Of a DNA stretch of 64,000 nt, positions 42,756 to 62,723 are shown piece by piece (position 1 is the stretch's first letter; each line of letters begins with the position of its first letter). The stretch lies in the NCBI GenBank assembly GCA_017745295.1, contig JAGHZR010000005.1, forward strand, positions 124,001 through 188,000, written 5' to 3'. This stretch comes from Novosphingobium sp. (GTDB lineage: Bacteria; Pseudomonadota; Alphaproteobacteria; Sphingomonadales; Sphingomonadaceae). The translations under genes were made by a program, and so were the position numbers. The notes beneath the pieces were generated by a model. That model had not been told where the DNA came from and made no database searches. It saw only the letters and a program-made list of their open reading frames with translations.

Positions 42756-43622
42756 GTGAAACTCGCTCGCATCGGCCAACCCGGCCAGGAACGCCCCGCC
42801 ATCCTCGACAGCGAAGGCAGGCTTCGCGACCTCTCCGCCCATGTCTCCGACATCGGCCCCGCCACCTTGTCGGATGGCGAAATCGAACGCATGAAGGCGC
42901 TCGACATCGACGATCTTCCGCTTGTCGAAGCCCCCGTCCGCTACGGCCCGCCCGTCGCGCAGACCGGCAAGATCATCTGCATCGGCCTCAACTACACCGA
43001 TCATGCCGCCGAAGTCGGCCTGCCGGTTCCCACCGAGCCGACCGTCTTCATCAAGGCCTGCCGCACCAGCGGTCCAAGCGACCCGATCCGCCTGCCCAAA
43101 GGCGCCGAAAAGGGCGACTGGGAAGTCGAACTGGCCATCGTCATCGGGAAAGGCGGGCTCTACATCGAGGAAGACGATGCCCTCGACCACGTCGCCGGCT
43201 ACGCCCTGTTCCACGACGTTTCTGAGCGTTCGTATCAGATGGAACGCGGCGGCCAGTGGACCAAGGGCAAGAGCTTTCCCGGCTTCGCCCCGCTCGGCCC
43301 CTGGCTGGTGACGACGGACGAACTCGGCGACGCGGGCGATCTCGGCATCTGGCTAGAAGTCAACGGCGTGCGCCATCAGGATGGCACCACGCGCAACCTC
43401 GTGTTCGGCGTGCGGCAAGTCGTCAGCTATCTCTCGCGCTTCTTCGAACTGGAACCGGGTGACGTGATCGCAACCGGCACTCCGGCTGGCGTCGGCCTCG
43501 GCCTCAGGCCGCCGCAGTTCCTCAAGGCAGGAGATGTCGTGAAGCTCGGCATCGATGGCCTTGGCGTGCAGGAGCAGCGGATCGTGGGCTGGGAAACACC
43601 GGTTTCGGGAGGCGAGCAATGA
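42756..43622 (+). CDS. Fumarylacetoacetate hydrolase family protein
   Basis: KIICIGLNYTDHAAEVGLPVPTEPTVFIKACRTSGPSDPIRLP; GDVIATGTPAGVG; probable GTG start. Confidence 0.92.
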   Translation: MKLARIGQPGQERPAILDSEGRLRDLSAHVSDIGPATLSDGEIERMKALDIDDLPLVEAPVRYGPPVAQTGKIICIGLNYTDHAAEVGLPVPTEPTVFIKACRTSGPSDPIRLPKGAEKGDWEVELAIVIGKGGLYIEEDDALDHVAGYALFHDVSERSYQMERGGQWTKGKSFPGFAPLGPWLVTTDELGDAGDLGIWLEVNGVRHQDGTTRNLVFGVRQVVSYLSRFFELEPGDVIATGTPAGVGLGLRPPQFLKAGDVVKLGIDGLGVQEQRIVGWETPVSGGEQ

Positions 43623-44590
43623 CCCTCAAATCCGCACTCATGGCGGCGCTGCTGCCTTCGATGGCCGTGATGCTGGTTCCGGCGACTTCCCAAGCCGCGG
43701 CGCCGATGGCATCGCAGCGGCAGGCGCCCGGCTTTTACCGGATGCACGTGGGCCGTTTCGAAGTGACCGCATTGCTCGACGGGACACATCCCTTCCCGGT
43801 CGACCAACTGGCATTCGGAGCGAAACCGCGCGAAACCGACAAGCTGCTGGCGCAGCGTTATCTTGCCTCTCCCGTAGAGGGCATGATCAACGCGTTCCTC
43901 GTCAACACCGGCGATCGCCTGATCCTGATCGATACCGGCGCGGGTGACCTCTACGGCAAGGAAGCCGGTGGGCTGTCTGCAGCACTGCGTGCATCCGGAT
44001 ATTCGCCGGAACAGATCGACGATATCTTCATCACCCATCTGCATGAGGATCACGTCGGCGGACTGGTCAAGGATGGCCGGATGGTCTTCCCCAATGCCAC
44101 CGTCCACATATCGAAGCGCGATTATGACTTCTGGACCGACGATAGCCATCAGGCCGAAGTCGGCGCCCTGCTGAAACCCTTCTTCCCTGCGGTACAGGGC
44201 GTGCTGCGCCCTTACATCGCCGCCGGGCGCGTGGTGCCTTTTAGCGAGGGCGAAGGGGACCTGATCCCCGGTCTACGCCCTATCGCCGCCCCCGGACATA
44301 CTCCGGGCCACACGACGTACCTGCTCCATGACGGCAAGGACGCGATGCTGTTCTGGGGCGACACCGTTCACGTCGCCGGGGTGCAGTTCGACGATCCGCA
44401 TATCGCCATCAAGTACGACTGGAAGGTTCCCGGCGCCATCGCCAGCCGCGACAGGCTCCTCGCCGAAGCGGTGAAGAACGGCTGGTGGGTGGCGGGTGCG
44501 CACATCTCGTTCCCGGGCATCGGCCACATCGCCGCCAAGGGCCGCAACGCCTACGCCTGGGTACCGGCGAACTACACGCTCAACCGCTGA
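43619..44590 (+). CDS. Exported MBL-fold metallo-hydrolase (lactonase-like)
   Basis: Signal peptide; FITHLHEDHVGGLV (HxHxDH); APGHTPGHTTYLL. Confidence 0.9.
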   Translation: MTLKSALMAALLPSMAVMLVPATSQAAAPMASQRQAPGFYRMHVGRFEVTALLDGTHPFPVDQLAFGAKPRETDKLLAQRYLASPVEGMINAFLVNTGDRLILIDTGAGDLYGKEAGGLSAALRASGYSPEQIDDIFITHLHEDHVGGLVKDGRMVFPNATVHISKRDYDFWTDDSHQAEVGALLKPFFPAVQGVLRPYIAAGRVVPFSEGEGDLIPGLRPIAAPGHTPGHTTYLLHDGKDAMLFWGDTVHVAGVQFDDPHIAIKYDWKVPGAIASRDRLLAEAVKNGWWVAGAHISFPGIGHIAAKGRNAYAWVPANYTLNR

Positions 44591-44669: not shown

Positions 44670-45494
44670 ATGACCAATTTCGTCGCCGCCAAGGATGGCA
44701 CCCAAATCTACTACCGCGACTTCGGCAAGGGCCGCCCCATCGTCTTCTCGCATGGCTGGCCGCTCAATGCCGATGCCTGGGACGGGCAGATGCAATTTCT
44801 GGCAAACGCGGGCTTCCGCGTCATCGCCCATGACCGGCGCGGTCACGGCCGCTCGGATCAGCCCGCGACCGGCTACGACATGGACACCTTCGCCGACGAC
44901 CTGGCCGCGGTCATCGACGCCCTCGAACTGGAAGATGCGATCCTCGTCGGCCATTCCATGGGCGGCGGCGAGGTCGTGCGCTACATCACCCGCCACGGCA
45001 CCGGGCGCGTGTCCAAGCTCGTCCTGCTCGGCGCCATCACCCCGCTGATGGGCGCTACCGCTGGCAATGTCGACGGCGTGCCGATCGAAGTGGCCGACGG
45101 TGTGCGCAAGGCGGTTCTGGACAACCGCTCGCAATTGTTCCTCGACTTCCCCGACGTCTTCTTCGGCATGAATCAGGAAGGCGCGGACAAGAACGAAGGC
45201 TGGCGCATGGCCTTCTGGCAGCAGGGGATGTCGGGCGCGCTCCATGCCCAATATGCCTCTATCGAGCAGTTCTGGGCTACCGATTTCCGTGAGGAAATGA
45301 AGGCGATCTCGCTACCCGTCCTGATCGTCCATGGCAGCGGCGACTACATCGTGCCGATGGAAACGACCGCTAAACGCGCAGCCGAGATTCTGCCGAACGC
45401 CACTCTCAAAGTGTACGAAGGCGCTGCCCACGGCTTCCCTGTAACCCACCGCGACCGGCTCAACGCTGATTTGGTGGAATTTTCGAGCCACTGA
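44670..45494 (+). CDS. Alpha/beta hydrolase (non-heme chloroperoxidase-like)
   Basis: PIVFSHGWPLNADAWDGQM...GHSMGGGEVVRYITRHG. Confidence 0.92.
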   Translation: MTNFVAAKDGTQIYYRDFGKGRPIVFSHGWPLNADAWDGQMQFLANAGFRVIAHDRRGHGRSDQPATGYDMDTFADDLAAVIDALELEDAILVGHSMGGGEVVRYITRHGTGRVSKLVLLGAITPLMGATAGNVDGVPIEVADGVRKAVLDNRSQLFLDFPDVFFGMNQEGADKNEGWRMAFWQQGMSGALHAQYASIEQFWATDFREEMKAISLPVLIVHGSGDYIVPMETTAKRAAEILPNATLKVYEGAAHGFPVTHRDRLNADLVEFSSH

Positions 45495-45570
45495 TTACTC
45501 AGAAGGCCTCCTTTGAGGCATTGTAGGAAATTGTCGAACTCGGAAAAGTTTAAAACACGAAAATTGAGAT

Positions 45571-45594
45571 GGCCCGGCTCCGGCAAGCCGGGCC
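45571..45594 (+). terminator. Terminator hairpin at end of the 38.9-45.5 kb operon
   Basis: Perfect 9-bp stem GGCCCGGCT-CCGGCA-AGCCGGGCC followed by GTTT. Confidence 0.6.
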
Positions 45595-45765
45595 GTTTCG
45601 GCGATCCGGAATGCCTGAGTTCAGCCGCTTTAGCGATTGTCCACTTTGACCAGCCCTGATCGTCAGCTTTAAGCGAGACCGGACGTTGATTTGCCCGAAT
45701 GGGAACGACTGGGATGGGGCGGTAGCGGTCGTACGAATGCCCAAATTACCCTTTCTATTTCCGCG

Positions 45766-47178
45766 TCAGAAAATCACGCCGAACGCAAGCTCGAGGGCGT
45801 CTTCCATCGTGTAAGTTTTGAACTCCTCGCCTCGCCGATAGGTGAATCCGAAGTCGATCGCGGACGCATCAGCGACCCACCAGCGATATTTGAACGCGGC
45901 CTCGATGCGCCGTACGTCCGGGGCCGTGCCCGATACCGTCGGCAGGAAGCGATAGCGGAAGGAGCTGACCACCCCGGATTTCTCGAACAGCGGCGGGACG
46001 AGGTCGATACCGACCACGATACCGGTCGACAGGAAATTACCATGCTCCTTGAAATCGGCCCGCCCGGCCCGGAAGACATGACTATAGTCGATCTCACCGG
46101 CGACCATGCACTGAGTCCGGAAGGCGATGCTACTGATCGCGATCGGCTTGAGCTTGCCAAGTCCGCAGATGCCGAGGTCCGTTGGCATCCATCCCGGCGT
46201 AAGGAAAATAGATCCCACACCGCGCCGTGCCCCCTTCACATAGTCCGACACGAAGCTAGCCTGTCCACTCAGACTCGCGCGAAATGGCAACGCGACATCG
46301 TCGATCGACAGGCCGATGGCGAGACCATTGGTATCCTTGTCATCACGTCGTTCATCGGGTCCGAGCGCCGACGCAGGTTTCGTGCGGTCACGCGACAAGG
46401 TGTAGTTGGTATATAGAAAGATCGGATAGGCGGCCTGGTCGCCGGTCAAGCGCAAGCCCAATGTGCCGTCGAAGCTCAGGGTCGTGGTAGTCTTGGTGCT
46501 GCCGTCATCTTCCTCAGTTCGGATTCTCTTGATCCCGATCGTCGCGGATTCGGCCTTCTTGCGATCGTCACCGGTGAGTGCGAGCGAAGTGACGGTCCGC
46601 ACGAGACCCAGGCGCGGGATCTCGGTCGGTTCGTTCAAGCTGTCGATCACCGGAGTTTCGATGGGCGTACCATCTTGCGCGACGACCACTGGCCGCTCGG
46701 CTCTCGGCTTGGCCGGCATGCAGGCGATCCTGACCGTGGCCGCGTCTTCGAACAACCAGAGCGGACGGCCGACCGTGTCGGCCGGATATGGCGACGTCAG
46801 CCTGAGCCCGCGCGCCTTGGGCGTAATCGACGAGCCTGGAGCAAGCTCCTGACCGAGCTGGCGGACATAGTGCAACAGGGCCTGGCGGCTTGCCCGGTCC
46901 ATCGTGGCGGGCGGCGAGACGACACGATCAACGAGTAGCTGGAGATAGGCTTCAGGCGCGACAGCTGTGGTGCCGAGCAGACGCGATGGCGGATAGCCGA
47001 TCTGGAAGAAGATGCCTTCTGCGATTCGTCCAAGAGGAACACTTCGCTCCTGGCCGGGATCAGCGACTCCGGCGCAGGCGGTCTTGACCACCGCGCTGAG
47101 ATCGACCTCGTCAGCCGCCCAGACCGGCGTGGCGACACCAAGACCGAGGACCGTGGCAAAGATGGAGGCCCGCATCAT
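45766..47178 (-). CDS. Exported protein with beta-rich, outer-membrane-like C-terminus; unknown function
   Basis: Signal peptide MMRASIFATVLGLGVATPVWA; repeated alternating hydrophobic segments in C-terminal half ending in ALELAFGVIF (terminal aromatic). Confidence 0.7.
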   Translation of the reverse strand: MMRASIFATVLGLGVATPVWAADEVDLSAVVKTACAGVADPGQERSVPLGRIAEGIFFQIGYPPSRLLGTTAVAPEAYLQLLVDRVVSPPATMDRASRQALLHYVRQLGQELAPGSSITPKARGLRLTSPYPADTVGRPLWLFEDAATVRIACMPAKPRAERPVVVAQDGTPIETPVIDSLNEPTEIPRLGLVRTVTSLALTGDDRKKAESATIGIKRIRTEEDDGSTKTTTTLSFDGTLGLRLTGDQAAYPIFLYTNYTLSRDRTKPASALGPDERRDDKDTNGLAIGLSIDDVALPFRASLSGQASFVSDYVKGARRGVGSIFLTPGWMPTDLGICGLGKLKPIAISSIAFRTQCMVAGEIDYSHVFRAGRADFKEHGNFLSTGIVVGIDLVPPLFEKSGVVSSFRYRFLPTVSGTAPDVRRIEAAFKYRWWVADASAIDFGFTYRRGEEFKTYTMEDALELAFGVIF

Positions 47179-47537
47179 CGTGCGGTGAACGTCGTAATCG
47201 ACGCCTTTACGGTCAGAAGCCGCGCTTTGGCCTGAGCGATCGCCGCCTTGGCTGTGGCGAGTGTCGCTTTTTCAACGAGATAATCGCCGAAGGTTGCGAG
47301 GGTGCGGGTTCGCAATTTGTCGATCTCGTTTCGGTTGCGCCCGATCTTGACGCCTGCACACAATTCAAAATCATCCATCATGCTGTCGGCCTGAACACGC
47401 CAATCCGGCTTCGTCGCACCCCAGCCATTGGTATTATCGCCAGGGATGAGTGCCGACCAATTGGGATAATAAGGTGGCCCCAGCTTCTTCACGAACTTGT
47501 CTATGGCGATGTCGGCGCAAGCTTGAGCACGTTCCAC
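47175..47537 (-). CDS. Hypothetical small protein, translationally coupled to 45766..47178
   Basis: Co-oriented ORF with 4-nt overlap with downstream gene; GTG start. Confidence 0.6.
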   Translation of the reverse strand: MERAQACADIAIDKFVKKLGPPYYPNWSALIPGDNTNGWGATKPDWRVQADSMMDDFELCAGVKIGRNRNEIDKLRTRTLATFGDYLVEKATLATAKAAIAQAKARLLTVKASITTFTAR

Positions 47538-47719
47538 GATAAGCCCCCTTTTCAGAGGCGGCCGGCATGATCAGCCGGGGACTCGCCCGGCGCACGCTCG
47601 ACTATTTGCCCCCGCATTGGGATACTATGTCATTTTGGTCTGCTTAGGGAGCGAATACTTGTCCGTTTTAGTGCCCAGTTACTTTTGGAGATGAAAATGA
47701 ACATTCCTCCAGAACATGG

Positions 47720-48571
47720 TCATTCAGCCCGCTCAAATGTAACTATGAATGCGCGCCCAGCACGGCCATCGGACGGTGCGATCTGGCGCACCGCGCGCGA
47801 TGTCAGCGCGTCGTTCCGTTCACCGATCCAGCGGACGCCAGTGATCGTCATGTCGGTGTATGGGGCTTCCCCGACCCAAATCGAACCTTCCCCATCAATG
47901 ATGTCATGGAGGCCTTTCAGTGCGCCCCCGACGGGGGGATCGAAGGAGAACAGTTCATCCATCACGATGATTGGGGCGCCCGGGTTGCCGGAGACGCGGA
48001 AGCGCGGCCCCTGCGGATTGACGCCTCCCGAATTGCCCGAGAGAAGGAACGCTCGCCCGCCCGTTGTCGGTTTGAACGCCACAGTCATGATCATGCCGTG
48101 AGGCTGCGCTGGCCAGGGCAGCGATCGCGAGACAATGAATGGCGCGCCCCCGACCTGCGTTTCGGCAATGGACTGACACACGGCTTGATAGGCGGGGCTG
48201 GTACATGGCACCGCCCAGGAAACCATGACGCGGGAGGTGCCAAGGGGCGAGAGGATGCGGCGGATATCACTCGTCGTCTGATTGCTCTCGCTCATCATCT
48301 TGCGCGTATTGGCGAGCGTGCCGCTTGTCGTTTGCACGATCGCAAGGATGCGCTGGTTGTCGTCTGCGGCCTTCTTCTGGTTGGACATGACTTCCGCAAA
48401 CTGCGCCCACACACCGCCGATCGTAGACACGATGATCCCGGCCAACGACACATAGCCCCATCTGGTGATCTTCTTTGAGCCTTTGTGCCGAAATTCCGTC
48501 GCCAGCCCGAGGATGCCGAAGGCGCCGGTTAGGACGATCGCCAATGCCTTCCAGACTTCGAACAATTCCAT
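47720..48571 (-). CDS. Two-TM, coiled-coil hypothetical protein with C-terminal globular domain
   Basis: TM segments VWKALAIVLTGAFGILGLA and WGYVSLAGIIVSTIGGVWAQF, then SNQKKAADDNQRILAIVQTTSGTLANTRKMM. Confidence 0.7.
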   Translation of the reverse strand: MELFEVWKALAIVLTGAFGILGLATEFRHKGSKKITRWGYVSLAGIIVSTIGGVWAQFAEVMSNQKKAADDNQRILAIVQTTSGTLANTRKMMSESNQTTSDIRRILSPLGTSRVMVSWAVPCTSPAYQAVCQSIAETQVGGAPFIVSRSLPWPAQPHGMIMTVAFKPTTGGRAFLLSGNSGGVNPQGPRFRVSGNPGAPIIVMDELFSFDPPVGGALKGLHDIIDGEGSIWVGEAPYTDMTITGVRWIGERNDALTSRAVRQIAPSDGRAGRAFIVTFERAE

Positions 48572-48617
48572 CGCGATATACTCTCCAAGGCGCAGACGCG
48601 CGACGCTCTGGCATCAT

Positions 48618-49964
48618 CTAGACTTCGAGTATGAGCGGAGCGTCATCGAGCAATCTGACCGTCAGGTGACCGTTGCTGGCACGCGACGCTTCGTCGAGCA
48701 TTGCCTCGACCTTTGCGAGGTGAGCGCGCGCCTTGCGCAGTTCTTTGGGATCCTTACGCTCGGCAATCTTGGCGGCGATTTCGTCGCCCATGAACGCTGT
48801 GCTGCAGTTCAGCCAGATGGTGAACGGCCGACCGGCCTCGGCATTGGCTGACATATCGCTGCCATTTCCGAGGCGGGAGTCGAGCAGAACCTCCAGAATG
48901 CGCAGGTCAGGATTGTCGTGCTCGCCATTGGCGCAGAAAACATAATGGTCTGCGGTGATCCGCTTGGCGAAGGTACGGTCCATATTATGTTCGGACCCAT
49001 GATGCGGCATCTTCAGGATATCGACATGCAGCCCACCGCCATCGGCCAGGAGACCGTGGTGCTTCAAGCCCGCCAGCACATCCTCGTGATGGCCGTCGCC
49101 GGTCAGGACAAGGCGCTTGACCCGTCCGTGATAGGTTTCCTCCAGCAATAGCATAAGCGAGGCGAGGTTGGGCTCGGTAACATTGTTGCGATGCCCGATC
49201 TCGTCATCGATCGACAGGCTGACAGCTGCGGTTCCGATCGGGCCAGCATTATCACCCAGCCACTTCTTGAGGCTGGCGACCGACTTGCTGTTCTCGGCAT
49301 CCTTGAGCCAAGCGTTCCAATATTCACGCAGGATCGCGAGATCCTTCTCGAAGGGACCAAGCAACTTGATCGCCATCCGGCTGTTCCGTTTGAGGGTGAT
49401 AGTGTCGGGGCCGCGCACCATCGCGAGCTTGCCGCCAAATTCCTCGTTGAGTGGAATATTGAGCTGATCGGCCGCGATGCGCCGCGACACCTTAATCGCC
49501 TCGGGAATCGAGGCCGCGATGTTGCGATAGGCTGCGGCGAGCTTGAGTGCGGATGGGTTGGCCATGCTCGACAGCGCGTTGGCGCGTGAGGCCAGCATGG
49601 TCGCGATCGGCCCGCTATTTTCGGGGACGAGTGCCTTGAAGCTGTTGTGCCAGATGCGCTTGATCGCGGGCGGCTCGGGATAGTCGGGCGCCCGCGAAGC
49701 GCGGCCGTTGGCCACTTTGAAATTGTGGACGCGCCACGCGACCAAGTCTTCCATCAATCGCAACACACCGCCGATATGATCCTGATCGACGTGCGAAACA
49801 TAGACTAGGTCGAGTGGCTTTCCGGCGGCAGCCCATGCACCGAGAAAGGGCCGCACAGATTTCTGATAGGAGGCCGGCATGCCGCCATCGGCGAGGATCG
49901 CGACCCCGCCGCCTTCGATCAGGATGCAGTCGCCCTTTTCCGAAGGGAGGATCGTCAATTTCAT
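48618..49964 (-). CDS. ComEC-like MBL-fold hydrolase
   Basis: GDCILIEGGGVAILADGG; VYVSHVDQDHIGGVLRL (HxDxDH); KMPHHGSEHN ComEC-type motif. Confidence 0.88.
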   Translation of the reverse strand: MKLTILPSEKGDCILIEGGGVAILADGGMPASYQKSVRPFLGAWAAAGKPLDLVYVSHVDQDHIGGVLRLMEDLVAWRVHNFKVANGRASRAPDYPEPPAIKRIWHNSFKALVPENSGPIATMLASRANALSSMANPSALKLAAAYRNIAASIPEAIKVSRRIAADQLNIPLNEEFGGKLAMVRGPDTITLKRNSRMAIKLLGPFEKDLAILREYWNAWLKDAENSKSVASLKKWLGDNAGPIGTAAVSLSIDDEIGHRNNVTEPNLASLMLLLEETYHGRVKRLVLTGDGHHEDVLAGLKHHGLLADGGGLHVDILKMPHHGSEHNMDRTFAKRITADHYVFCANGEHDNPDLRILEVLLDSRLGNGSDMSANAEAGRPFTIWLNCSTAFMGDEIAAKIAERKDPKELRKARAHLAKVEAMLDEASRASNGHLTVRLLDDAPLILEV

Positions 49965-51955
49965 GAAAATCGCCCCTTTGCATCATGGTCGATCATAAGC
50001 TGACGCGCGGCGCGAACACATTGTTCGGGCTGGATGATGCCGAACCCGCAGTCGTTGACCCACTCAAACGTGCCGCCGGGCAGCGGCTGTGCCGTGGCCT
50101 TGAGGATGCCGACGATCTGCGCGGCGGTGAGGCGGGGTTCGGCCGCGAGCATGAGCCCCACTACGCCCGCCGCAAAAGGGCTCGCCATGCTGGTGCCAGT
50201 CATCGGAATCCACGGCTCGTCCGGCTCGCCGAAGCCATTGGCAGCGATGATGTCCGTGCCGGGCGCCGCTACGTCGGGTTTGGGACGGCCATCTCGGGTC
50301 GGGCCTTGGCTAGACGTGATGTGTGCCTTGCGCCCGATTTCGTCGAGGTTGGCTACGGAGACGATTCGATGGCCGCAGGCGAGCGCGCTGACCGAGGAAG
50401 CGTCGATGTTCGATCGCTCGGAAAAGAACGATGGCCAATAGTGTGTCCCGTCGCCGAGATCGGCAGGATCGTCCCGCTCGATCCAGGCATGAAACCGGCC
50501 GTCGCGAACGATCTGGCCGTGGAGGCGCACCAGCCACGTTCCGGCCGCGATCCCCACGACCGGGTCACCCATGAAGGGCGTCAGATACACCGAAATGTAG
50601 TTCGACCCGTTCGCCGCGTGGTGCAATTGGTTATAGATGCTGAGCACGGTGCGATCGCGCATCTGGAAGTTCTCAAGATACTCGCCCGGCCCGATCGGGC
50701 CGATCCACTCGCCATTTGGCGGCCGGATGCTGATCGCAAATCGGTCCTGTGGCTCGTACCAGAGTTCGAGTTCGTTTTCGGACGCATCGATGATGCGGTC
50801 GCCGATGACTTCCCATTCGATGTCATGTTCCAGCCCTTGGGCAGCGATACGTCCCGCGGCATGAATGCGGCCGAGCATGTAGCCAAGGTCGTCGGGGGCT
50901 TCCGGGCGCTCCTGCCCCGCATTGCCAGCCGCGATGCAGATTGCACGACCAGGTTCGGTCAACAGCGCATCGATCCAGCGGTCGAGCGGACTCGACCCAT
51001 CGTGAGCATGTCCGTTGGTGCCGAGGCTGATATTGATGGAAACCGGCCGGCCGGCGGCGACATTGATAAGATGGTAGATGGCATCAAGCAGGCGAGTCGA
51101 ATCATAGAATGACGTGCGCCGTTCGAGGTCACTGTCGGGCAACGAGACGAGAACAGCAGCAATTTCAGCTTTGCTGCAAACCCCGGTCCGGCCAGCGGCA
51201 ATACTCGCGACATGGGTGCCGTGCGAACCGACGATCATCTGCGATTGCGGTTCTAGGTCGTGCGGCGAGACCTTCACGGTCTTTGCATCGGCGAGCGCCT
51301 GGACCATATCGGCTCTGCTTATGAGGCGGCCATAATCTGAACCTTCGGGGAATGGTCCGTCACGGGCACCCTGATCCCAGATGCTCGTGAACCGTGGAGC
51401 GCCTTTGTCATCGACTAGGTCGGGATGCGTCCAATCGAAACCTTCTACGTCAATGATGCCAATGAGGACGCCGGCACCATCACCATGTTTCGCACGATCG
51501 GCGCTGATCGCCCGCTTGAGCGGTGCTGTGCTTGTCGCGCTCCCTTTGATCGGGCGTGGCACCTTGAGGGTTTCGGCGTGCTCGACGAACACCGTATCGA
51601 TATCACCAGCGAAATTCTCGGCCTCTTCGACCGAGACGCGACGCACGGCCAACGCCCCAAGGGTTCGTCCGTTGCCCGGTGGCAGCGGCCGTGCTGACTG
51701 GATGAATATGTTGAGTTCAGCGTTGCCCCAGCGGCCGGCGGGGTCGAGATCGTTGACCTTGGTGGCCCTGATCGACGCATCGGCCGGCGAGATCGCGCTC
51801 GCGAGAGGCGCCACAGCCTCCGCGATTTCCGGCTGGACGCTCAAGCAACCTTGAACTTCGGCCTTGGCTGCGAGAACCGTTATGTCGCTGTTCGCGAGAG
51901 AGCGAAGTTTGGGATGCATGCGCCGTTGGGCACGGGCCTCATAGTCTTCGGACAT
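49961..51955 (-). CDS. S8 (subtilisin-like) serine peptidase
   Basis: Apparent triad in context: GIIDVEGFDWTHPDL (Asp), VGSHGTHVASIAAG (His), GTSMASPFAAGV (Ser); no obvious signal peptide. Confidence 0.93.
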   Translation of the reverse strand: MSEDYEARAQRRMHPKLRSLANSDITVLAAKAEVQGCLSVQPEIAEAVAPLASAISPADASIRATKVNDLDPAGRWGNAELNIFIQSARPLPPGNGRTLGALAVRRVSVEEAENFAGDIDTVFVEHAETLKVPRPIKGSATSTAPLKRAISADRAKHGDGAGVLIGIIDVEGFDWTHPDLVDDKGAPRFTSIWDQGARDGPFPEGSDYGRLISRADMVQALADAKTVKVSPHDLEPQSQMIVGSHGTHVASIAAGRTGVCSKAEIAAVLVSLPDSDLERRTSFYDSTRLLDAIYHLINVAAGRPVSINISLGTNGHAHDGSSPLDRWIDALLTEPGRAICIAAGNAGQERPEAPDDLGYMLGRIHAAGRIAAQGLEHDIEWEVIGDRIIDASENELELWYEPQDRFAISIRPPNGEWIGPIGPGEYLENFQMRDRTVLSIYNQLHHAANGSNYISVYLTPFMGDPVVGIAAGTWLVRLHGQIVRDGRFHAWIERDDPADLGDGTHYWPSFFSERSNIDASSVSALACGHRIVSVANLDEIGRKAHITSSQGPTRDGRPKPDVAAPGTDIIAANGFGEPDEPWIPMTGTSMASPFAAGVVGLMLAAEPRLTAAQIVGILKATAQPLPGGTFEWVNDCGFGIIQPEQCVRAARQLMIDHDAKGRFS

Positions 51956-52442
51956 ATTAGATCCCCCGAGTCGAGTATGCCATCAGAAGCGTCGTCCATC
52001 TACTCTTAGCGGAGAGATTCCACGTAATGGACTCTATGGCAACAATAGAGCTTTTTTGGCCTAAAGGTTTCTTTCAGCATTCCCTCGATTGAAAGGGATT
52101 TTTCGTCCTTCTCTTGGGCGCGAGCCAGCAAGAAATATGGGCTGTTCTGCAATAGGTGGCTGAACGCTTCTGAGAAAGTCGGCCGTTCGCCGCCAATTCG
52201 GGGAACGGCTTGCTTTGGTCGCAGGTTGCCGGGAGAACGACAAACTGCACCTAGGCATCGCAATTTACCGGTCGAAGGGCAAAAACCGGTCACAAGTTGC
52301 ATGACCGTTCCATCATCACTTTTCGCCGTCCGTTTGCGCCCGTTCGATCGGGCCAAGTCAACGCAGGCGCTACGCTGGCCGCCTCGCTATCTCGCCAGTT
52401 GCCGCCATTGGGTTACTATGGCTAGACCGCAATAACCGCCCA

Positions 52443-53366
52443 TCAATGTGATAACGGGAAGGTGCCAGCGGTCTCTCCCAGTCGTCGGCACGCCAGTTCG
52501 CTGATTGCCGAATGCAACATCTCCACATGCCGATCTATCCAGGAAAGCTCATCATCATTTACCCGAAATCGCTGATCATACCGCGATTTCACGTAAGCAT
52601 TGTGGAGCAGCACAAAGCAGCGCCGCTCGAACCTCGTCTCATCCGGCCAGACTGATGCCAGCGCGGGAGCAAAATCCTCGCAGCGATCCCGAAGCCAGGT
52701 GAGGTTATGCGATCTCGGGCTGTCCCCAGTCATTACATATAGCCCCGCATGATAGAGGGCTTCAGTCGCCTGATGAAACTGGAACACCCCGCGATTGGTC
52801 CAGCCGCGTGCGCAGGCGATCCGTGCAAGCTCCAGAAACTCCGTGGCGTTTGTGAACCAGTATTCGAAGTGCGCGAGGCGCTCCTCCCGGATCGCGACGG
52901 AATCGCGTGGTTTGGGAGGAGCCAAAGAATGCCCCGGTAACTCGTAGAGCATCAGACCTTGCTGCACGGCGTCGCATAGGAACGACTTTCCAGCCAACAG
53001 ATCCTTATGAACCGACTGTATTCCGCGAACGGAAAGGCTCACGGGCGTTGTCAGGCGCCCCGCGATGGCGTGTTCACGCATAAGCCGATCGTCGGCATGC
53101 TTGCCAAAGTTCGATTGATCGACGATGCGATCGTCGTTCACGATCACAAGAATCGAGTACTTCGGCAAACGCCCACCCGGCAAAGGCTGGAACCCCACTC
53201 CCACCGCGTGCGCACCGAACAGGATGATTTTCAAGATGCGACCTTGTCGCTTCCATTTCTGCGTCGCCAGTGCAAGGGCATCCTCCATCTCCGCGAAGAG
53301 AATTGTAATGATCTGCGTGAGGTCATCTTGAGCTGTGCTCGGCAAATGATCTGTGAGTGTCAGCAT
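52443..53366 (-). CDS. Nucleotidyltransferase-HEPN fusion protein with degenerate NTase motif
   Basis: RILKIILFGAHAVGVGFQPLPGGRLPKYSILVIVND (diverged GS/DxD), HEPN-like FHQATEALYHAGLYVMTGDSPRSHNLTWLRDRCEDF...FERRCFVLLHNAYVKSRY. Confidence 0.8.
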   Translation of the reverse strand: MLTLTDHLPSTAQDDLTQIITILFAEMEDALALATQKWKRQGRILKIILFGAHAVGVGFQPLPGGRLPKYSILVIVNDDRIVDQSNFGKHADDRLMREHAIAGRLTTPVSLSVRGIQSVHKDLLAGKSFLCDAVQQGLMLYELPGHSLAPPKPRDSVAIREERLAHFEYWFTNATEFLELARIACARGWTNRGVFQFHQATEALYHAGLYVMTGDSPRSHNLTWLRDRCEDFAPALASVWPDETRFERRCFVLLHNAYVKSRYDQRFRVNDDELSWIDRHVEMLHSAISELACRRLGETAGTFPLSH

Positions 53367-53443
53367 CTTCCACCATCTATTGCACGCGCCCGCGTGCACA
53401 TAAAAACATAGCCAGACCCAACATGAAAGCGTTCTAATTCCAG

Positions 53444-53944
53444 TCAATTTGACTGAAATCGCGCCGCGACTTTGCGCGAAACCGCCAGAGCATAATCACG
53501 TTGTCTCCACGGCGTCGGACTGTGATAGGCACCAATCGCCTTCCAGTAGTTTCGATTGGCTCGCAGCTCGGTGAGAAAGATCCAGCGCGCCGCCTGAACA
53601 TTGAAGCACGCATCGCGAATGAGCCAGACCCTGACGATCGCCGGAGGGCGGCCGGTAAGCGCGGACAGACGGGGTATCCACCAGCTGTTTATCTGCATGG
53701 GGCCGAGGTCATGAGTACCGTTAGTATTGGGGACCTCGGCACCGATCCATCCGGCTTCCTGATCCCTGAGCCCCCAAAGGGTCCGTTCCAACCACGCCCG
53801 ACCGACAGCGGCGTGACGGATGCATTGCCCGATGGTCACTTCATGCTGCGGGCTCAAAGCGGGACGCGCTTCAACCTCGGTCGAGAACATGGCGGCGATC
53901 GTCAAGGCGAGCCCCGTTGCAGTTCTCGGACGGCTACCGATCAT
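53444..53944 (-). CDS. Lytic transglycosylase (SLT-like, conjugation-associated)
   Basis: QEAGWIGAEVPNTNGTHDLGPMQINSWWIPRL (DLGPMQIN SLT motif); signal peptide; adjacent to relaxase. Confidence 0.82.
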   Translation of the reverse strand: MIGSRPRTATGLALTIAAMFSTEVEARPALSPQHEVTIGQCIRHAAVGRAWLERTLWGLRDQEAGWIGAEVPNTNGTHDLGPMQINSWWIPRLSALTGRPPAIVRVWLIRDACFNVQAARWIFLTELRANRNYWKAIGAYHSPTPWRQRDYALAVSRKVAARFQSN

Positions 53945-56894
53945 GGCTTTCTCCCTTGCCGTGTACTGGATCTCCGCGACCCCGTGCGGGTGCGGGTGCG
54001 GGCTCGGAGGCGGTTTCGCTGCGGTCAGACCGATGGGACGTGAAAAGCGACTGCAACCAGGCATCGAAAAATACTGCGGCCGATCGCCCCCGGTCAGCGA
54101 GTTCTGCCGCGAGCCCATTAGGCTGACCACGCCGACCAGTATCGCGTAGCGCGGCCAACCGCTCCTTGCGCTGAACCCGCTCCTCGCTCTGCTCCTCGCG
54201 CAGACGCTCCCATCGCTTGGAATGCCGAGGCGCCCTTCCCTTCACGTTGTCCTTTTCGACGCGGTTGAGCCCCTCCAGTGCAGAGGTTTTTTCGCCCGAT
54301 CGACGCGAAAGAAGGTCTGCGAGCTTATCCTTGTCCTGGGTCCAAAGCTTCGCGCCGAACCGGGCGCGGGTGATGGCCGTGTAATAGTTCTGCCCGTTCA
54401 CCAAGGGCGAGCCGAGCGGCGCCAGGACGTAGACACGGTCGTAGGTCTTGGACTGGGCCGCGTAGATGGTCTCGGCATATCCGTGATCCCAGGTCTTATG
54501 GTGGGCCAGATCGATAGACTGGCGCCGTCCATCGGTATCCCAGCGGACCATTACTCGGGTGCCCTCGAGCGATTCCACCGTACCGCGCTCGGCATTCTTG
54601 ATGTCGAGGTCATGGCTCACCAGCCGCCACTGGATCCGATCTCCGCGTGCCAATTGGCGATCTTCCTCGTTGAAGACATTTAGCCGCTGCGGCTTTCCCA
54701 ACCGAGGATTCCAGCGGACGATGCGCCCTTGCTCGTCGGCAAGTTCAAGCACCTGCCGATCCGCATCGTCGACTACCATCCGCACGACCCGATACTCACC
54801 GTCCTTGGCGATTCCCAAGCGCGCAATACCGCGTGAAAAGGTCAGAACCTGGCCCCGGCTGTAAAACCGAGCGTAGCGTTTCTCGGCATCCGATAACCCC
54901 GCGGGTGCCAGGACCGTCATTCGCACATCGTCTGCCCCGATGGCGCCTTCGGCCCTAAGCGCCTCGCGCACCTTCGAGTTCACGATCAGGCGGGTCGCGT
55001 TATCGAGCACGAGAATATTCGTCGTCGCGCGCGTATCCGGCTTTAGGCGGGTCCACTCCCGTACCAGCCCCCCGGCGAGCTCTTCCGGCTTTTCCGAGAC
55101 CAGGACCTTGTCGAGATTGTCGAGCGAGCCCGCATAATCCCCCGCCCGGGCAAGCGCGACGGCTGCCTTCATCGCCCTGGTCTCCTGGCGGACAGACTGC
55201 ATCAGATCCACGCGAGAGAGTCCGAGTTGTTGCATCAGCCAGAACGGCTTGCCCTGTTCTATGGCTCCTGTCTGACGGTTGTCGCCAAGCAGGATGAGGC
55301 GAGCCCCTGACAGCCGGCTGATTTCGAGCAGACGGAGGGCCTGATGGTTGCCGAGCTGGCCAGCCTCATCGAGGATCAGCACGGAGTTCTCGTCGAGCTG
55401 GCGAGCTCCCCGCGCTAGAAGACTGGCGACGGTACGGCTTTCGATTCCGGCCCGCTTACCGAGCTCGGCAGCAGCGGACGATGTCGGCGCGAGAGCAATC
55501 ATCGCAAAGCGCTCGCCGGTGGCTTCGCGCAGCGCGCCGACCAAAGTCGATTTCCCTGCACCGGCAACGCCGTGGACCCCGACGAGCCGGTCCGGGCTGG
55601 TTCCCAGATGCAGAAGCCCTTTTGCCTGCTCCGGGGTCAAACCGTGCGCTTCACTCACCTCACGCAGCCGCGACTCGATGGCCAATGGTACTGCGTCGTT
55701 CAGGGCCAAGGCCAGATGATCGGATAGCGCGATTTCAAGGCGAGCCGTGCGCCGCGTTGTGCGGCCCCGCGTGAGAACCAGGTCTCCGGTCGGTCGCCGC
55801 ACTTCCAGGAGTTTGCGCCTTGCCTCGTGGTCCTCGGCAAAAGGCCTGATATCCGAGAGCCGCACCTCGCCAACATGGGAGGCGAGGCCCACCCGCAGGA
55901 GCTGACCCAGGTTATTCACCGCCTCGCGACCTTCCGAATGGCGCAGACCGAAAAGCATTGCGCGTGCCGCAATGGCCGGGGTCGGCACGAGCGTGCGGTC
56001 GCCGTTCTGCGATGCGGCTTGCTTCGTCTCGCCGAGCACACCGCGATGCGGCCCCAGCCGAACACCCCAGCTTGTTCGCAGTTCCTCAAGCGTGGCGCGC
56101 TTCTTGGCCCCTCGCGTCTCGTAGTATGACTTGCGCCGGGCTGCCTGCCCTTCCAGCCCATGCTCCCGCGCGTGCGCTTCTATCTGCTCGGCGCGCTGCG
56201 ACATTTCTCGAAGGAGATCCTGGGGAACGCCGCGGATCTCGAACAGCCCGCGACGGGGCTCGAAATCGACCTCGTAGCCAAACTCCCGGATACGGTGCGC
56301 GAGGTGGTTTCGATAGACCTGCCCCGCCACCATCTGCTCGCTGTACATGGCCCGGGTTTCAAGGCTCGCCATCAGACTGCTCGGGGCACGGTTGGTCATA
56401 TTCATGATGACGACGTGGGTATGGAGGTGGGGGTCGAGTTCGCGCGACGCATGCTCTGTGAAACGCGCATAAACGAGCCTGCCTGTCGTCTCGTGAACTA
56501 TCTCGCCCTCTGAGCGACGGCGAAGTGTCGCGTGCTCCTCAAGGTAACCCAGTGCCTCGGTGACTGCAGCCTCGTGGGCAGCGACGATGCGCTCATCGCC
56601 CATTACAAGAGCCATGATCGAGACGGACTTGGGTGCGTTGACCGCAAAGTCCCAGCCGGGATGATGCTCGACCGATCCGTCGCTTCGCCTGCGCCCCAGT
56701 TGCACCTCGCCGATCTTTCCTTCGAGCAATTCCCGAAAGGTATCTGGATCGACTTTTCCGGTGAGGCCAAGCTCCTCCGCGATGAGTCCACCCCACTCAG
56801 AGTGCTCGCCCTCGCCTTTCGTGTAGTAGTCGCCGACGGTGTAATACCGTGCGAGGTTCTTGGGTGTGCCCTTGAGACGGCGAGGATGGATCAT
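53934..56894 (-). CDS. MobF-type conjugative relaxase/helicase (TrwC/TraA-like)
   Basis: N-term LARYYTVGDYYTKGEGEHSEWGGLIAEELGL; HELDPHLHTHVVIMN-type three-His motif (ELDPHLHTHV); Walker A GVAGAGKST; YTAITRAR helicase motif. Confidence 0.95.
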   Translation of the reverse strand: MIHPRRLKGTPKNLARYYTVGDYYTKGEGEHSEWGGLIAEELGLTGKVDPDTFRELLEGKIGEVQLGRRRSDGSVEHHPGWDFAVNAPKSVSIMALVMGDERIVAAHEAAVTEALGYLEEHATLRRRSEGEIVHETTGRLVYARFTEHASRELDPHLHTHVVIMNMTNRAPSSLMASLETRAMYSEQMVAGQVYRNHLAHRIREFGYEVDFEPRRGLFEIRGVPQDLLREMSQRAEQIEAHAREHGLEGQAARRKSYYETRGAKKRATLEELRTSWGVRLGPHRGVLGETKQAASQNGDRTLVPTPAIAARAMLFGLRHSEGREAVNNLGQLLRVGLASHVGEVRLSDIRPFAEDHEARRKLLEVRRPTGDLVLTRGRTTRRTARLEIALSDHLALALNDAVPLAIESRLREVSEAHGLTPEQAKGLLHLGTSPDRLVGVHGVAGAGKSTLVGALREATGERFAMIALAPTSSAAAELGKRAGIESRTVASLLARGARQLDENSVLILDEAGQLGNHQALRLLEISRLSGARLILLGDNRQTGAIEQGKPFWLMQQLGLSRVDLMQSVRQETRAMKAAVALARAGDYAGSLDNLDKVLVSEKPEELAGGLVREWTRLKPDTRATTNILVLDNATRLIVNSKVREALRAEGAIGADDVRMTVLAPAGLSDAEKRYARFYSRGQVLTFSRGIARLGIAKDGEYRVVRMVVDDADRQVLELADEQGRIVRWNPRLGKPQRLNVFNEEDRQLARGDRIQWRLVSHDLDIKNAERGTVESLEGTRVMVRWDTDGRRQSIDLAHHKTWDHGYAETIYAAQSKTYDRVYVLAPLGSPLVNGQNYYTAITRARFGAKLWTQDKDKLADLLSRRSGEKTSALEGLNRVEKDNVKGRAPRHSKRWERLREEQSEERVQRKERLAALRDTGRRGQPNGLAAELADRGRSAAVFFDAWLQSLFTSHRSDRSETASEPAPAPARGRGDPVHGKGESHDR

Positions 56895-58930
56895 GCCGGC
56901 CTCGCGGTATCGCGCTCACCGGTATTGCGACCGTGTTGGCGCAAGCGAAAGTCTGCTGGCTTGCCGAGGAGTGCCAGCGGTTCAGCCTCGCGTGGCCCTA
57001 GTTCTGCCGAGCCCTTTCCTTCCTCCGGCATGGCTGTGGCTGGCGCTGGACATGCTTCCAAAGGAAGCATCGGCGAAGTTTCTCTATCCGCCGCCGGCTG
57101 TGCGCGGCGTTTGCCAGATCCCCTTTTCCGATCGGGCTCCGGCCGCTGGGGTTGCGATCTTTGTGGTTCCGGTTCGGGCGGCGATTCCTCCTCCCGAACG
57201 GAAAGGCGAACCGGGACGTCCAGCTTTTCCTCGAAGGCAACCGCAATGGACGGCACCCGATGGAAGCTGTCTTCGAAGCGCACGACGGGAAGATCCCGGC
57301 CGAAGCGCAAGTACCCAACGAGGTTCGGCAGGTTCGTCACCTCGGTGTGCATCACCAGCGGACGGGTCACCTGCATGCGCGAGAGATTCACGCCGTCGCG
57401 CATGTCGTTAACACCGTACGACATGCCCTCGTTGGCCTCGACCTGCTCGACCTGCCCGAGGTTCTCGCTGACGTGCTTCGCGGTGGGGGTGTCATTGGCC
57501 CGGAGCGCTACCCAGGTCGAACAGTAGCCGGTGATCGCCGCCGCATCCTGAATGCCGTAGGTAGCCTCCAGCTGCGGGTAGCTCTGGAAACCGAGAACAC
57601 CGCAGCCTCCGTACTTCCTGGCGCGCGCGAGAAAGTCCGAAAGCGAGGGGAGCTTATGGAGCGAGGGCAACTCGTCGACCACGCAATAAAGGCGTCGATT
57701 GCGGTCCGGCGACAGGCTCATAATCGCGCTGATCGCGATATCCAGCCAGACCGTGATCAGCGGGCGAAGCGAGGGCAACTGGTCGGCCTTCACGGTGATG
57801 AAAAGCCAGCTATCGTCCCTTTCGTTTGCCACCCAATCGCGGATCGAAAGCCCATCAGCGGTATCGTCGAGGTAGGAAAAGCTGCGCAGTACCGAGGCGA
57901 GTTCGGCCTGGATGCCAGCCGATGTCCGCTCACCTTCCGTTGAGATGAAGGCGGCCGCATCGGTACCGGCGGCGAAGGCAGCCAAGTCCTTCAGCTTGGA
58001 GCGCAGCAGTGTGTCGAGGAGGATCGATACGAGCGTGCGTTCCTGTCGCGCAAGCTTGCGCATGACGGCCACCAGGGTGCCACGCGCGGCCTTGGCCCAG
58101 AAGGGATCGCCGGACTTGTCGGGTATCGTGGACTCGGCGATCTGGTCATAATGGTAGTCGCGCGGGACATCGACCCAGGGCGACCAGCGGTCGGATCGGA
58201 CGTCGAGCGGATTGAGCAGGACGTCGATCCCGGGACGATAGAACTTCTCCACGAACGTGCCGGCAGTGTCGTAGACGATTGCACGGCGCCCCGCCGTCCG
58301 GATACCTGCGAGCATATTCACGATGATGTTTGTCTTGCCGGTTCCGGGAGCCCCGCAGATGAGGATGTGCTCCGGCTCGAAGGCATCGGGCACCCGGACA
58401 CCGCCGATCTCGAAGCTGCCCCGCGCCTGCGCCCATAGCGCCCGGCGGACCTGCCTGACGGTGCCGAAACGGGCCCCGCGCAGGAACTGGTTGGAGCCGA
58501 GCCCCCTCCCCGTCCGGGTGAAATAGAACCAGGCCCACAGCAGCATGGCGAGCGCGAAGACGCCTGAAATCGCCGCCCCGTGTAGAAGGTAGCCCTCAAA
58601 GGCGCCGAGTGTCTCACGCGCGACGTCCGCATCCATGAGTGCGGCGGGCGTCGTCCAATACTCCACCCCATGCTCAGACCTGAACAGCATGGGCGTCTGG
58701 TTTCCGGGAACCGTATCCCCCATGAGGAGAGCCTGACCTATCCTGGTCATGACGTATCGCTCGTACTCGCTGGAGCGTTCGAGCGCGTACCAGATGACGC
58801 CGCCGATCCAGACAACGAGGCCCGCCAGGCAAGTCTGGTAAAAGACCTGTGTCGTCATGCGCACGTTATGGACGATGGCCTGCCCGCCCCGGGTCCAGGA
58901 ACCGAGGGTGTCGTGCCGGAAGATACTCAC
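56891..58930 (-). CDS. Type IV coupling protein (TraD/TrwB family)
   Basis: HILICGAPGTGKTNIIVNML Walker A; LYCVVDELPSLHKLPSLSDFLARARKYGGCGVLGFQ; N-terminal TM; GTG start. Confidence 0.95.
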   Translation of the reverse strand: MSIFRHDTLGSWTRGGQAIVHNVRMTTQVFYQTCLAGLVVWIGGVIWYALERSSEYERYVMTRIGQALLMGDTVPGNQTPMLFRSEHGVEYWTTPAALMDADVARETLGAFEGYLLHGAAISGVFALAMLLWAWFYFTRTGRGLGSNQFLRGARFGTVRQVRRALWAQARGSFEIGGVRVPDAFEPEHILICGAPGTGKTNIIVNMLAGIRTAGRRAIVYDTAGTFVEKFYRPGIDVLLNPLDVRSDRWSPWVDVPRDYHYDQIAESTIPDKSGDPFWAKAARGTLVAVMRKLARQERTLVSILLDTLLRSKLKDLAAFAAGTDAAAFISTEGERTSAGIQAELASVLRSFSYLDDTADGLSIRDWVANERDDSWLFITVKADQLPSLRPLITVWLDIAISAIMSLSPDRNRRLYCVVDELPSLHKLPSLSDFLARARKYGGCGVLGFQSYPQLEATYGIQDAAAITGYCSTWVALRANDTPTAKHVSENLGQVEQVEANEGMSYGVNDMRDGVNLSRMQVTRPLVMHTEVTNLPNLVGYLRFGRDLPVVRFEDSFHRVPSIAVAFEEKLDVPVRLSVREEESPPEPEPQRSQPQRPEPDRKRGSGKRRAQPAADRETSPMLPLEACPAPATAMPEEGKGSAELGPREAEPLALLGKPADFRLRQHGRNTGERDTARPA

Positions 58931-59241
58931 GGGCGGTCCTGCTCGGGATCGAGCAGCCCCCTTTCGCGCAGGAGCCGCCGCGCTTCGCCAAGCCCCTCTT
59001 CCAGGATAGCAGGCGCGCGGACACCGACCGACTTGGCGAGGATCGCCAGGGTCTGGATCGCGGTCGCGTGGAGTTCGTCGAAACGGGCATGATAGCCCGT
59101 GGGATCGTTGCCCTCGAAGCGCTCGAGAACGTCGCGAATATAACCCGACGGAGTGGTGCCGAGCGTAGTTGCCTGATCGAGCACGCGCTCGAACAGGTCG
59201 TCGGCGAGACGGATTGTAATCCTTGCCATGCGCAGTTCCAT
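58927..59241 (-). CDS. Ribbon-helix-helix protein, probable relaxosome accessory
   Basis: MARITIRLADDLFERVLDQATTLGTTPSGYIRDVLERF RHH; 4-nt overlap with coupling protein. Confidence 0.75.
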   Translation of the reverse strand: MELRMARITIRLADDLFERVLDQATTLGTTPSGYIRDVLERFEGNDPTGYHARFDELHATAIQTLAILAKSVGVRAPAILEEGLGEARRLLRERGLLDPEQDRP

Positions 59242-59689
59242 GCTGCGCCGGCACGTGGTGAAGCCAAACTTGGATAGCAGGAAGCCACGGAATTCTCAAG
59301 GATTTGGGGTGTCCGACGCCGGTGACGTTCGGTGCCAAGGCCAAACAAGGACTTGCGCCGATCAAGCCGCGGCCCTGTCCGACAGATCCGACGTTCTGTG
59401 ACCTCGCGGCGGACGGATAGAGACGGCCGAAGCCCGCAGAAACGCTGGCGATTCGCGCAGCAGCACCCGTGCGTACGGTGCATTACAAACGCCCTCGCGG
59501 CGTGCGTCGCTGCTACGCAGCGGCTTGCCCGCTGCGCTGCCTCGTGCCGGAAGGCGCGGGGCTCCCCGGGAGGGGATCCCTTGTTCTTCGCGGGCCGCAG
59601 GCTCGCAGCAAATCCTGCCTTGCGCGCCAGGCGCATTTTCGGGAAGATCGCACCCGGCGGGCAGGCCTCCTCGAACGAGGAGACTATCA
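59242..59689. other. Candidate oriT region
   Basis: Noncoding divergent gap between RHH/coupling-protein genes and TraD-like gene; contains perfect 8-bp stem CGCAGCGG-CTTGC-CCGCTGCG at 59516-59536; no nic site identified. Confidence 0.4.
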
Positions 59690-61712: not shown

Positions 61713-62723
61713 TCAAGCGGCGACGCGCAGGCGCGGCTGGCGGGTACCGGGCGAGACCGGATCGGCGCTCTGCTCGCTCCTGCGAAAGGCATGGATCGGT
61801 ATTCCGGCCTGCCTCAGGAGCTGGTAGAGGTTGGCCTGGAGGCCCGATCCCTCGCATAGCACGGCCTCGACCGGCTTCAGATCGACCAGCTTGCGGTTGC
61901 GTGTGAAGGCGACTTTGCGCCCCGATCCATAGAGGCCGTAAACGACCAGCGGCACACCGATCTCGGGCCGCGCGGCCCATGCTGCAGCGATCGCGTCGGC
62001 GCCCTTGCGCTGTCCGGTCGTCACCAGCGTCATGGCAGGAACGCGGGCCCGGATCTGGTCGAGCCGCTGCCAGATCGGCTCCCAGTCATGCCACTGCGCG
62101 GGTCCGGAAAACACCACGATCGGACCTTGCGGCAGGTGACGTTCGCGAGCGATCAGCGCGCGCTGACGCAGGAAATCCTGCGCCGCGATCTGGCTCGCCG
62201 AGGAAGCGGGCGATACCTTGCTACCGCGCGCTGGCGACCAAGGCCATCCCGACAGCGCCCGGTACATCTCGGCAGCGTAGTCTCGCATGCATTCGAGTGC
62301 CTCACGCTGTTCGGCAGTCGAGCGACAAAGGAGCTGCTTCTCTTCCAATTGGCCGGTGAAGACTTCGCTCATATCGGGGGACCGCGCCATCTCGCCGATC
62401 TCGTCGGCGAGCGCGTCCTCGCGCCGCTCAAGTTTCCCGGCGACAAAGTGGAAGGAATTGACGAAACCCCACGCGAGGTCCGCTGCGAGCGGTTCGAGAC
62501 GGGTTCCGGTGAAGAGATCGAAGATCGTCGCGATGATCCCCGCACAGTCCGCCTGAGCCGCCAGAGGCTCGGGCATTTCATGCTCGGCCGGGACTTCTCC
62601 CGGCTCGGCAATCGAAAGCGGCAATGGATCGCCGAACGCCGCGCGAAACTCAGGCGTGGTTGTCATTTCGGCATAGAGGGTCTTCAGGTCCGCAAAGCGA
62701 TCGATGGACGAAGAACGGGACAT
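61713..62723 (-). CDS. DUF2493 (SLOG-like) domain protein, paralog of 60131..61111
   Basis: GPIVVFSGPAQWHDWEPIWQRLDQIRARVPAMTLVTTGQRKGADAIAAAWAARPEIGVPLVVYGL. Confidence 0.85.
   Translation of the reverse strand: MSRSSSIDRFADLKTLYAEMTTTPEFRAAFGDPLPLSIAEPGEVPAEHEMPEPLAAQADCAGIIATIFDLFTGTRLEPLAADLAWGFVNSFHFVAGKLERREDALADEIGEMARSPDMSEVFTGQLEEKQLLCRSTAEQREALECMRDYAAEMYRALSGWPWSPARGSKVSPASSASQIAAQDFLRQRALIARERHLPQGPIVVFSGPAQWHDWEPIWQRLDQIRARVPAMTLVTTGQRKGADAIAAAWAARPEIGVPLVVYGLYGSGRKVAFTRNRKLVDLKPVEAVLCEGSGLQANLYQLLRQAGIPIHAFRRSEQSADPVSPGTRQPRLRVAA

Follow-up and report, generated by a model that had tools for sequence, protein, structure and literature searches.

A conserved S8 protease-MBL hydrolase gene pair from Novosphingobium as a candidate protease-activated pro-nuclease module

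Do three closely spaced genes, encoding an S8 (subtilisin-family) protease, a ComEC-like metallo-β-lactamase-fold (MBL) hydrolase and a protein with two transmembrane segments (the 2-TM protein), act together, and if so, as what? The question is raised by a 64,000-nucleotide (nt) stretch of DNA from Novosphingobium sp. (GCA_017745295.1, contig JAGHZR010000005.1, 124,001–188,000 of the forward strand), referred to below as the window. An earlier reading of the letters alone (the sequence-only reading) had proposed that the three genes form a conflict system with the membrane protein as effector. We find that the conserved unit is the two-gene S8-MBL pair, and the explanation we lean toward is that the pair is a pro-nuclease module activated by its own protease. 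The three open reading frames (ORFs) are present, all on the minus strand, and are arranged as follows:

49961..51955, minus strand: S8 (subtilisin-family) protease, 664 residues (PF00082, invariant triad, AlphaFold2 model, Csp-like nearest structures)
48618..49964, minus strand: ComEC-like MBL hydrolase, 448 residues, predicted protease-gated pro-nuclease (PF00753, 38-sequence alignment, model, nearest structure 9ic4)
49961..49964, minus strand: 4-nt stretch in which the end of the S8 gene and the start of the MBL gene overlap, with possible translational coupling
47720..48571, minus strand: orphan 2-TM protein, 283 residues (gene-like composition, ribosome site)

We used a profile scan of ~85,000 genomes to collect loci whose MBL belongs to the window's clade. 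The scan gave 40 loci, one of which (L028) starts within the MBL and so has no upstream sequence. In the remaining 39, without exception, a strong S8 match lies directly upstream of the MBL on the same strand, counting one locus (L049) in which the S8 is present but split between frames. The same arrangement is found in five plasmid loci (L003, L004, L005, L006 and L011); in a further plasmid locus (L012) the S8 is in fragments. Hosts of the pair belong to at least eight phyla (Pseudomonadota, Acidobacteriota, Bacteroidota, Planctomycetota, Actinomycetota, Verrucomicrobiota, Gemmatimonadota and Chloroflexi). Orthologues of the S8 and MBL in Bradyrhizobium share 66–72% identity with the window's proteins. 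The overlap in the window is exactly the 4 nt that the sequence-only reading had described, and at the junctions of homologous loci this overlap, or else a ~10-nt gap, is seen repeatedly. Distances among the S8 proteins correlate with those among the MBLs (Mantel r 0.83, with 0 of 2000 permutations as high), a correlation to which common species history adds. Pfam and PADLOC scans of 132 neighbors of 33 loci found no additional family beside the pair in more than two loci, and among viral contigs (IMG/VR) there were two distant MBLs, neither with an adjoining S8. The S8-MBL pair is the conserved unit, and its pairing is obligate and beyond chance.

The 2-TM protein stands outside this unit. 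Its two hydrophobic segments (near residues 9–27 and 41–59) and the 46-nt gap separating its gene from the MBL gene were as previously read; for its coiled coil, inspection by eye is the sole basis. With a gene-like codon-position GC content (0.74 at third positions, GC3) and a GGAG-type ribosome site, the gene is probably real and co-transcribed with the pair. The protein gave no match above noise in Pfam, NCBIfam, PADLOC or PHROG, and phmmer found no homologue among the ORFs of the collected S8-MBL loci. Searches of plasmids (tblastn), 250 genomes of the family, 288 genomes of the class and IMG/VR viral contigs returned only noise, and the weak matches to its N-terminal 93 residues in 249 genomes of the phylum were unrelated membrane proteins or noise. 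A separate weak match to the 2-TM protein (G160) was rejected on account of two internal stops.

The sequence-only reading had itself named the absence of the triplet elsewhere as one point that would count against it, and because the 2-TM gene is found in no related S8-MBL locus, a three-gene system is unsupported. A model with a 2-TM membrane effector that is processed by the S8 together with the MBL can draw on the gap, the shared strand, the ribosome site and the composition, all of which suggest co-transcription, but the failure to find a homologue in any S8-MBL locus or genome sample, together with the nature of the N-terminal matches, leaves it very improbable. The 2-TM protein is an orphan, a local accessory at most, and the role of effector probably falls instead to the MBL, a predicted nuclease.

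The MBL matches PF00753 (E-value 5e-9), and its nearest solved structure, by sequence and by fold, is the MBL domain of ComEC (9ic4; fold E-value 4.8e-9), so that its earlier description as a ComEC-like hydrolase with an HxDxDH motif stands. In alignments of 38 homologues, prepared for the MBL and the S8 alike, the MBL residues H58-x-D60-x-D62-H63, D290 and H321-H322 are invariant. Between two ComEC-matched blocks the MBL has 236 residues, compared with ~101 in ComEC, leaving ~135 extra. In the AlphaFold2 model [predicted local distance difference test (pLDDT) 78.4; predicted template modeling score (pTM) 0.82], stretches of at least three residues whose pLDDT is below 50 occur only at 110–151, 231–233 and 238–264, all within this insertion, and two candidate loops can be delimited:

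49512..49637, minus strand: first predicted disordered gating loop, MBL residues 110–151 (pLDDT below 50; aligns with the first Avs1a cleavage region)
49173..49274, minus strand: second predicted disordered gating loop, MBL residues 231–264 (pLDDT below 50 in its segments; aligns with the second Avs1a cleavage region)

The first loop is bordered by the invariant W105-H106-N107 and the near-invariant S152-x-x-x-A156; the second is the most variable region of the MBL and includes length changes.

Dual disordered active-site insertions containing protease sites are the hallmark of HamM, Avs1a and CanC (Tuck et al., 2025, PMC12799240). Such MBLs are pro-nucleases: the two insertions block them, and cutting by a trypsin-like or caspase partner activates them (PMC12799240). 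The partners are trypsin-like in Avs1, Hachiman and Lamassu and a caspase in Canu, and Erwinia Avs1a is cut at I134 and I234 (PMC12799240). When the window's MBL is aligned with Avs1a, the AIS and LISA motifs that match these cut sites map to the end of the first loop and inside the second. The matching positions in three annotated Avs1a proteins are Ile, then S or G, then A; in the window's clade the first site reads S-[IV]-x-[EDQ]-A, which is possibly structural, and the second has no conserved residue. This pattern is compatible with a different protease, yet it is no proof of a cut site.

The nearest PADLOC and NCBIfam models for the MBL are LmuA, Avs1a and an RT-associated MBL, and its score of 127.5 bits falls below the NCBIfam Avs1a cut-off of 420. 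The MBL is a member of the superfamily that comprises protease-activated anti-phage pro-nucleases, which bears out the resemblance of the cytoplasmic S8 and the MBL to conflict systems noted earlier; seeing a conflict-type protease/MBL unit in the two was probably correct. The features of a pro-nuclease pair found in the window are an intact ComEC-like active site, two disordered insertions and a protease that co-occurs and co-evolves with the MBL.

In a maximum-likelihood tree of 45 MBLs (arbitrarily rooted), a branch with 100/100 support separates all 31 S8-associated MBLs from the groups associated with trypsin-like and caspase proteases; the branches of two trypsin-associated rows are long, and L074 falls in the caspase group with no caspase neighbor detected. 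The same genome scan recovered distant MBLs beside trypsin-like or Avs genes (L061, L070, L079), one with a STAND gene (L075) and, in several phyla, others near genes for caspase-like proteins, in an order resembling that of Canu (L065, L067, L068, L069, L071, L073, L077, L078, L080).

Hachiman (HamM with protease-HamA), AVAST type 1 (Avs1a/Avs1b), Lamassu and DRT likewise combine a ComEC-like MBL, two disordered insertions and an obligate endopeptidase partner. The window's protease differs from theirs in being an S8 rather than trypsin-like, in being unfused to a sensor and in lying upstream of the nuclease, and the Ile of the cut sites is not conserved. AVAST type 1 requires a trypsin-like protease fused to STAND beside Avs1a, whereas the partner here is a stand-alone S8. 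An SMC-type ATPase (LmuB) is expected in a Lamassu operon, and none is present among the Pfam-scanned neighbors in the window. Canu (CanABC, PMC12799240) shares with the window a stand-alone protease gene upstream of an MBL nuclease of the same wider family, but its protease is a caspase, the window has no conserved CanB-like gene between the two, and caspase-associated MBLs form a separate clade. IetAS is also a defense pair containing a subtilase, but the partner of IetS is an AAA ATPase (IetA) rather than an MBL, no ATPase partner lies beside the window's S8, and that S8 matches the IetS model only weakly (E-value 0.034). In a Rhizobium plasmid, the S8-MBL pair is followed by genes for an IetA-like ATP-binding protein and for another S8 peptidase (L006:8017-11478), a probable IetAS. 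A search of the available literature found no paper naming an S8-MBL defense pair.

The S8 matches PF00082 (E-value 1.5e-28), and its catalytic residues D169, H245 and S589, together with the oxyanion residue N345, are invariant in the 38 homologues; no N-terminal hydrophobic segment was found. The complete triad and the lack of a signal peptide had both been read correctly from the sequence. The AlphaFold2 model (pLDDT 79; pTM 0.82) divides into three parts:

S8 residues ~1–150: prodomain-like N-terminus
S8 residues D169, H245, N345 and S589: catalytic domain
S8 residues ~364–493: beta-rich, jellyroll-type insertion

The nearest proteins by sequence are the Csp germination proteases of Clostridium (profile E-value 4e-32), and the nearest by fold (Foldseek) are CspA/CspC (E-value ~1e-30 over ~600 columns) and CspB (E-value ~1e-28). 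The Csp layout, an N-terminal prodomain followed by a subtilase interrupted by a jellyroll, is found in the window's S8, which shares with CspB/CspBA the prodomain, the inserted jellyroll domain and solubility. The CspB prodomain remains bound and inhibitory until a signal is sensed, and Csp proteases function in activating the zymogen SleC (PMC3567191). Because the CspB prodomain stays bound until the signal, a prodomain latch is plausible for a stand-alone S8, and by this analogy the window's S8 is probably latent through a retained N-terminal prodomain. The proposed likeness extends to role, as activation of a zymogen hydrolase, which for Csp is SleC. In contrast, identity between the two is ~22%, and Csp proteases serve spore germination and act on a peptidoglycan hydrolase rather than a nuclease.

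We consider it somewhat likely that the pair is an S8-activated two-gene pro-nuclease module. The MBL would be a ComEC-type DNase kept inactive by two disordered insertions that would lie at its active site, and the S8 a soluble Csp-like subtilase, its latency probably maintained by the N-terminal prodomain. A trigger, for which phage infection and plasmid invasion are the likeliest candidates, would free or activate the S8; active S8 would cut the MBL within its gating loops; and the opened nuclease would degrade DNA, leading to cell death or arrest. Autoinhibition, cleavage, DNase activity and an anti-phage role are what we infer for the pair.

Several observations weigh against such a module. 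The window's clade does not retain the Ile that is conserved at the trypsin-cut sites. The proteases of the trypsin systems are fused to a sensor (STAND, HamA or similar); the S8 is not, and no conserved sensor gene was found beside the pair among the collected loci. Known defense genes (SduA, IetA, AbiEii, HEC-01A) adjoin few loci, and most neighbors are metabolic; the neighbor counts stand without a control rate, and therefore enrichment in defense islands is not established. A bolder version of the module, which we regard as doubtful, is that the pair provides self-contained immunity with neither NTPase, helicase nor fused sensor: the retained S8 prodomain would itself be the sensor, an invader cue would displace it, and the gated DNase would thereby be licensed directly.

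The metabolic surroundings of many loci and the lack of a recurrent neighbor family would also suit a module for a non-immune cytoplasmic task, such as a stress response or peptide processing, with an MBL substrate other than DNA; MBL folds hydrolyze many substrates, and the second fold match of the window's MBL is a phosphorylcholine esterase. Against this, the presence of the MBL is rare and patchy (within the order, 3 of 401 genomes have it), 20 of the 31 plasmid records with an MBL match are typed conjugative, and the family is shared with experimentally proven anti-phage pro-nucleases. We judge a non-immune task unlikely.

In a second, more distant MBL clade (L007–L010, L050–L052, L054, L056–L060, L072), an S8 likewise lies upstream of the MBL in all 14 loci. 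These S8 proteins match the profile of the window's S8 only weakly and seem to be of another subtype. Varied possible effectors lie near the second-clade pairs: a patatin (adjacent in L010, near in L009), DUF2235 in L007, an XendoU endoribonuclease upstream in L056, and a cluster of cyclase, E2 and TIR genes in L008. Elsewhere, in Rhizobium indicum (L005:7417-9321) and Mycolicibacterium (L048:10327-11820), the S8-MBL pair is followed on its own strand by a gene of the tyrosinase family. Patatin, DUF2235, XendoU and tyrosinase, like local membrane proteins, could be read as variable neighbors that the pair also switches on, as a generic activation cassette. That no effector recurs often, and that a close same-strand neighbor is lacking at many loci in the window's clade, make such a cassette decidedly improbable.

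The setting by conjugation genes described in the sequence-only reading was recovered by Pfam scan, and a HEPN gene lies nearby as well:

52443-53447, minus strand: HEPN-domain gene, upstream of the S8 on the same strand (PF05168, E-value 2.6e-10, C-terminal)
53934-56894: TrwC relaxase (Pfam scan)
56891-59365: TraD-type coupling protein (Pfam scan)
30251-32017: serine recombinase

The N-terminal part of the HEPN-domain product (52443-53447, minus strand) looks nucleotidyltransferase-like by eye, hence a putative MNT-HEPN fusion. Close to the conjugation genes is a gene for a YspA/cpYpsA-related SLOG-family protein (61713-62723, minus strand; PF10686, E-value 1.1e-20). Two ORFs with a 4-nt overlap occupy 45766-47537 on the minus strand, encoding proteins of 120 and 470 residues, the latter with a probable signal peptide; neither has a family match. 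A further MBL-fold gene, unrelated to that of the pair, lies in an apparent catabolic cluster (43619-44590, plus strand). No RNA elements were found across 45000-54000 and no promoters above chance level; terminator-like sites number 9, compared with 4.9 in shuffles, and no site clearly ends the S8-MBL operon.

Protease-activated pro-nucleases are a recently recognized principle in bacterial immunity, one that has been demonstrated with trypsin-like and caspase proteases. If the pair is such a module, the coherent S8 branch, spread over at least eight phyla and built on a probably prodomain-latched Csp-like protease, would add a third protease class to this principle. Were the prodomain itself the sensor, the pair would further represent a sensor-free architecture among protease-activated pro-nucleases. 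The finding raises the question of what detects infection when the protease is unfused to a sensor.

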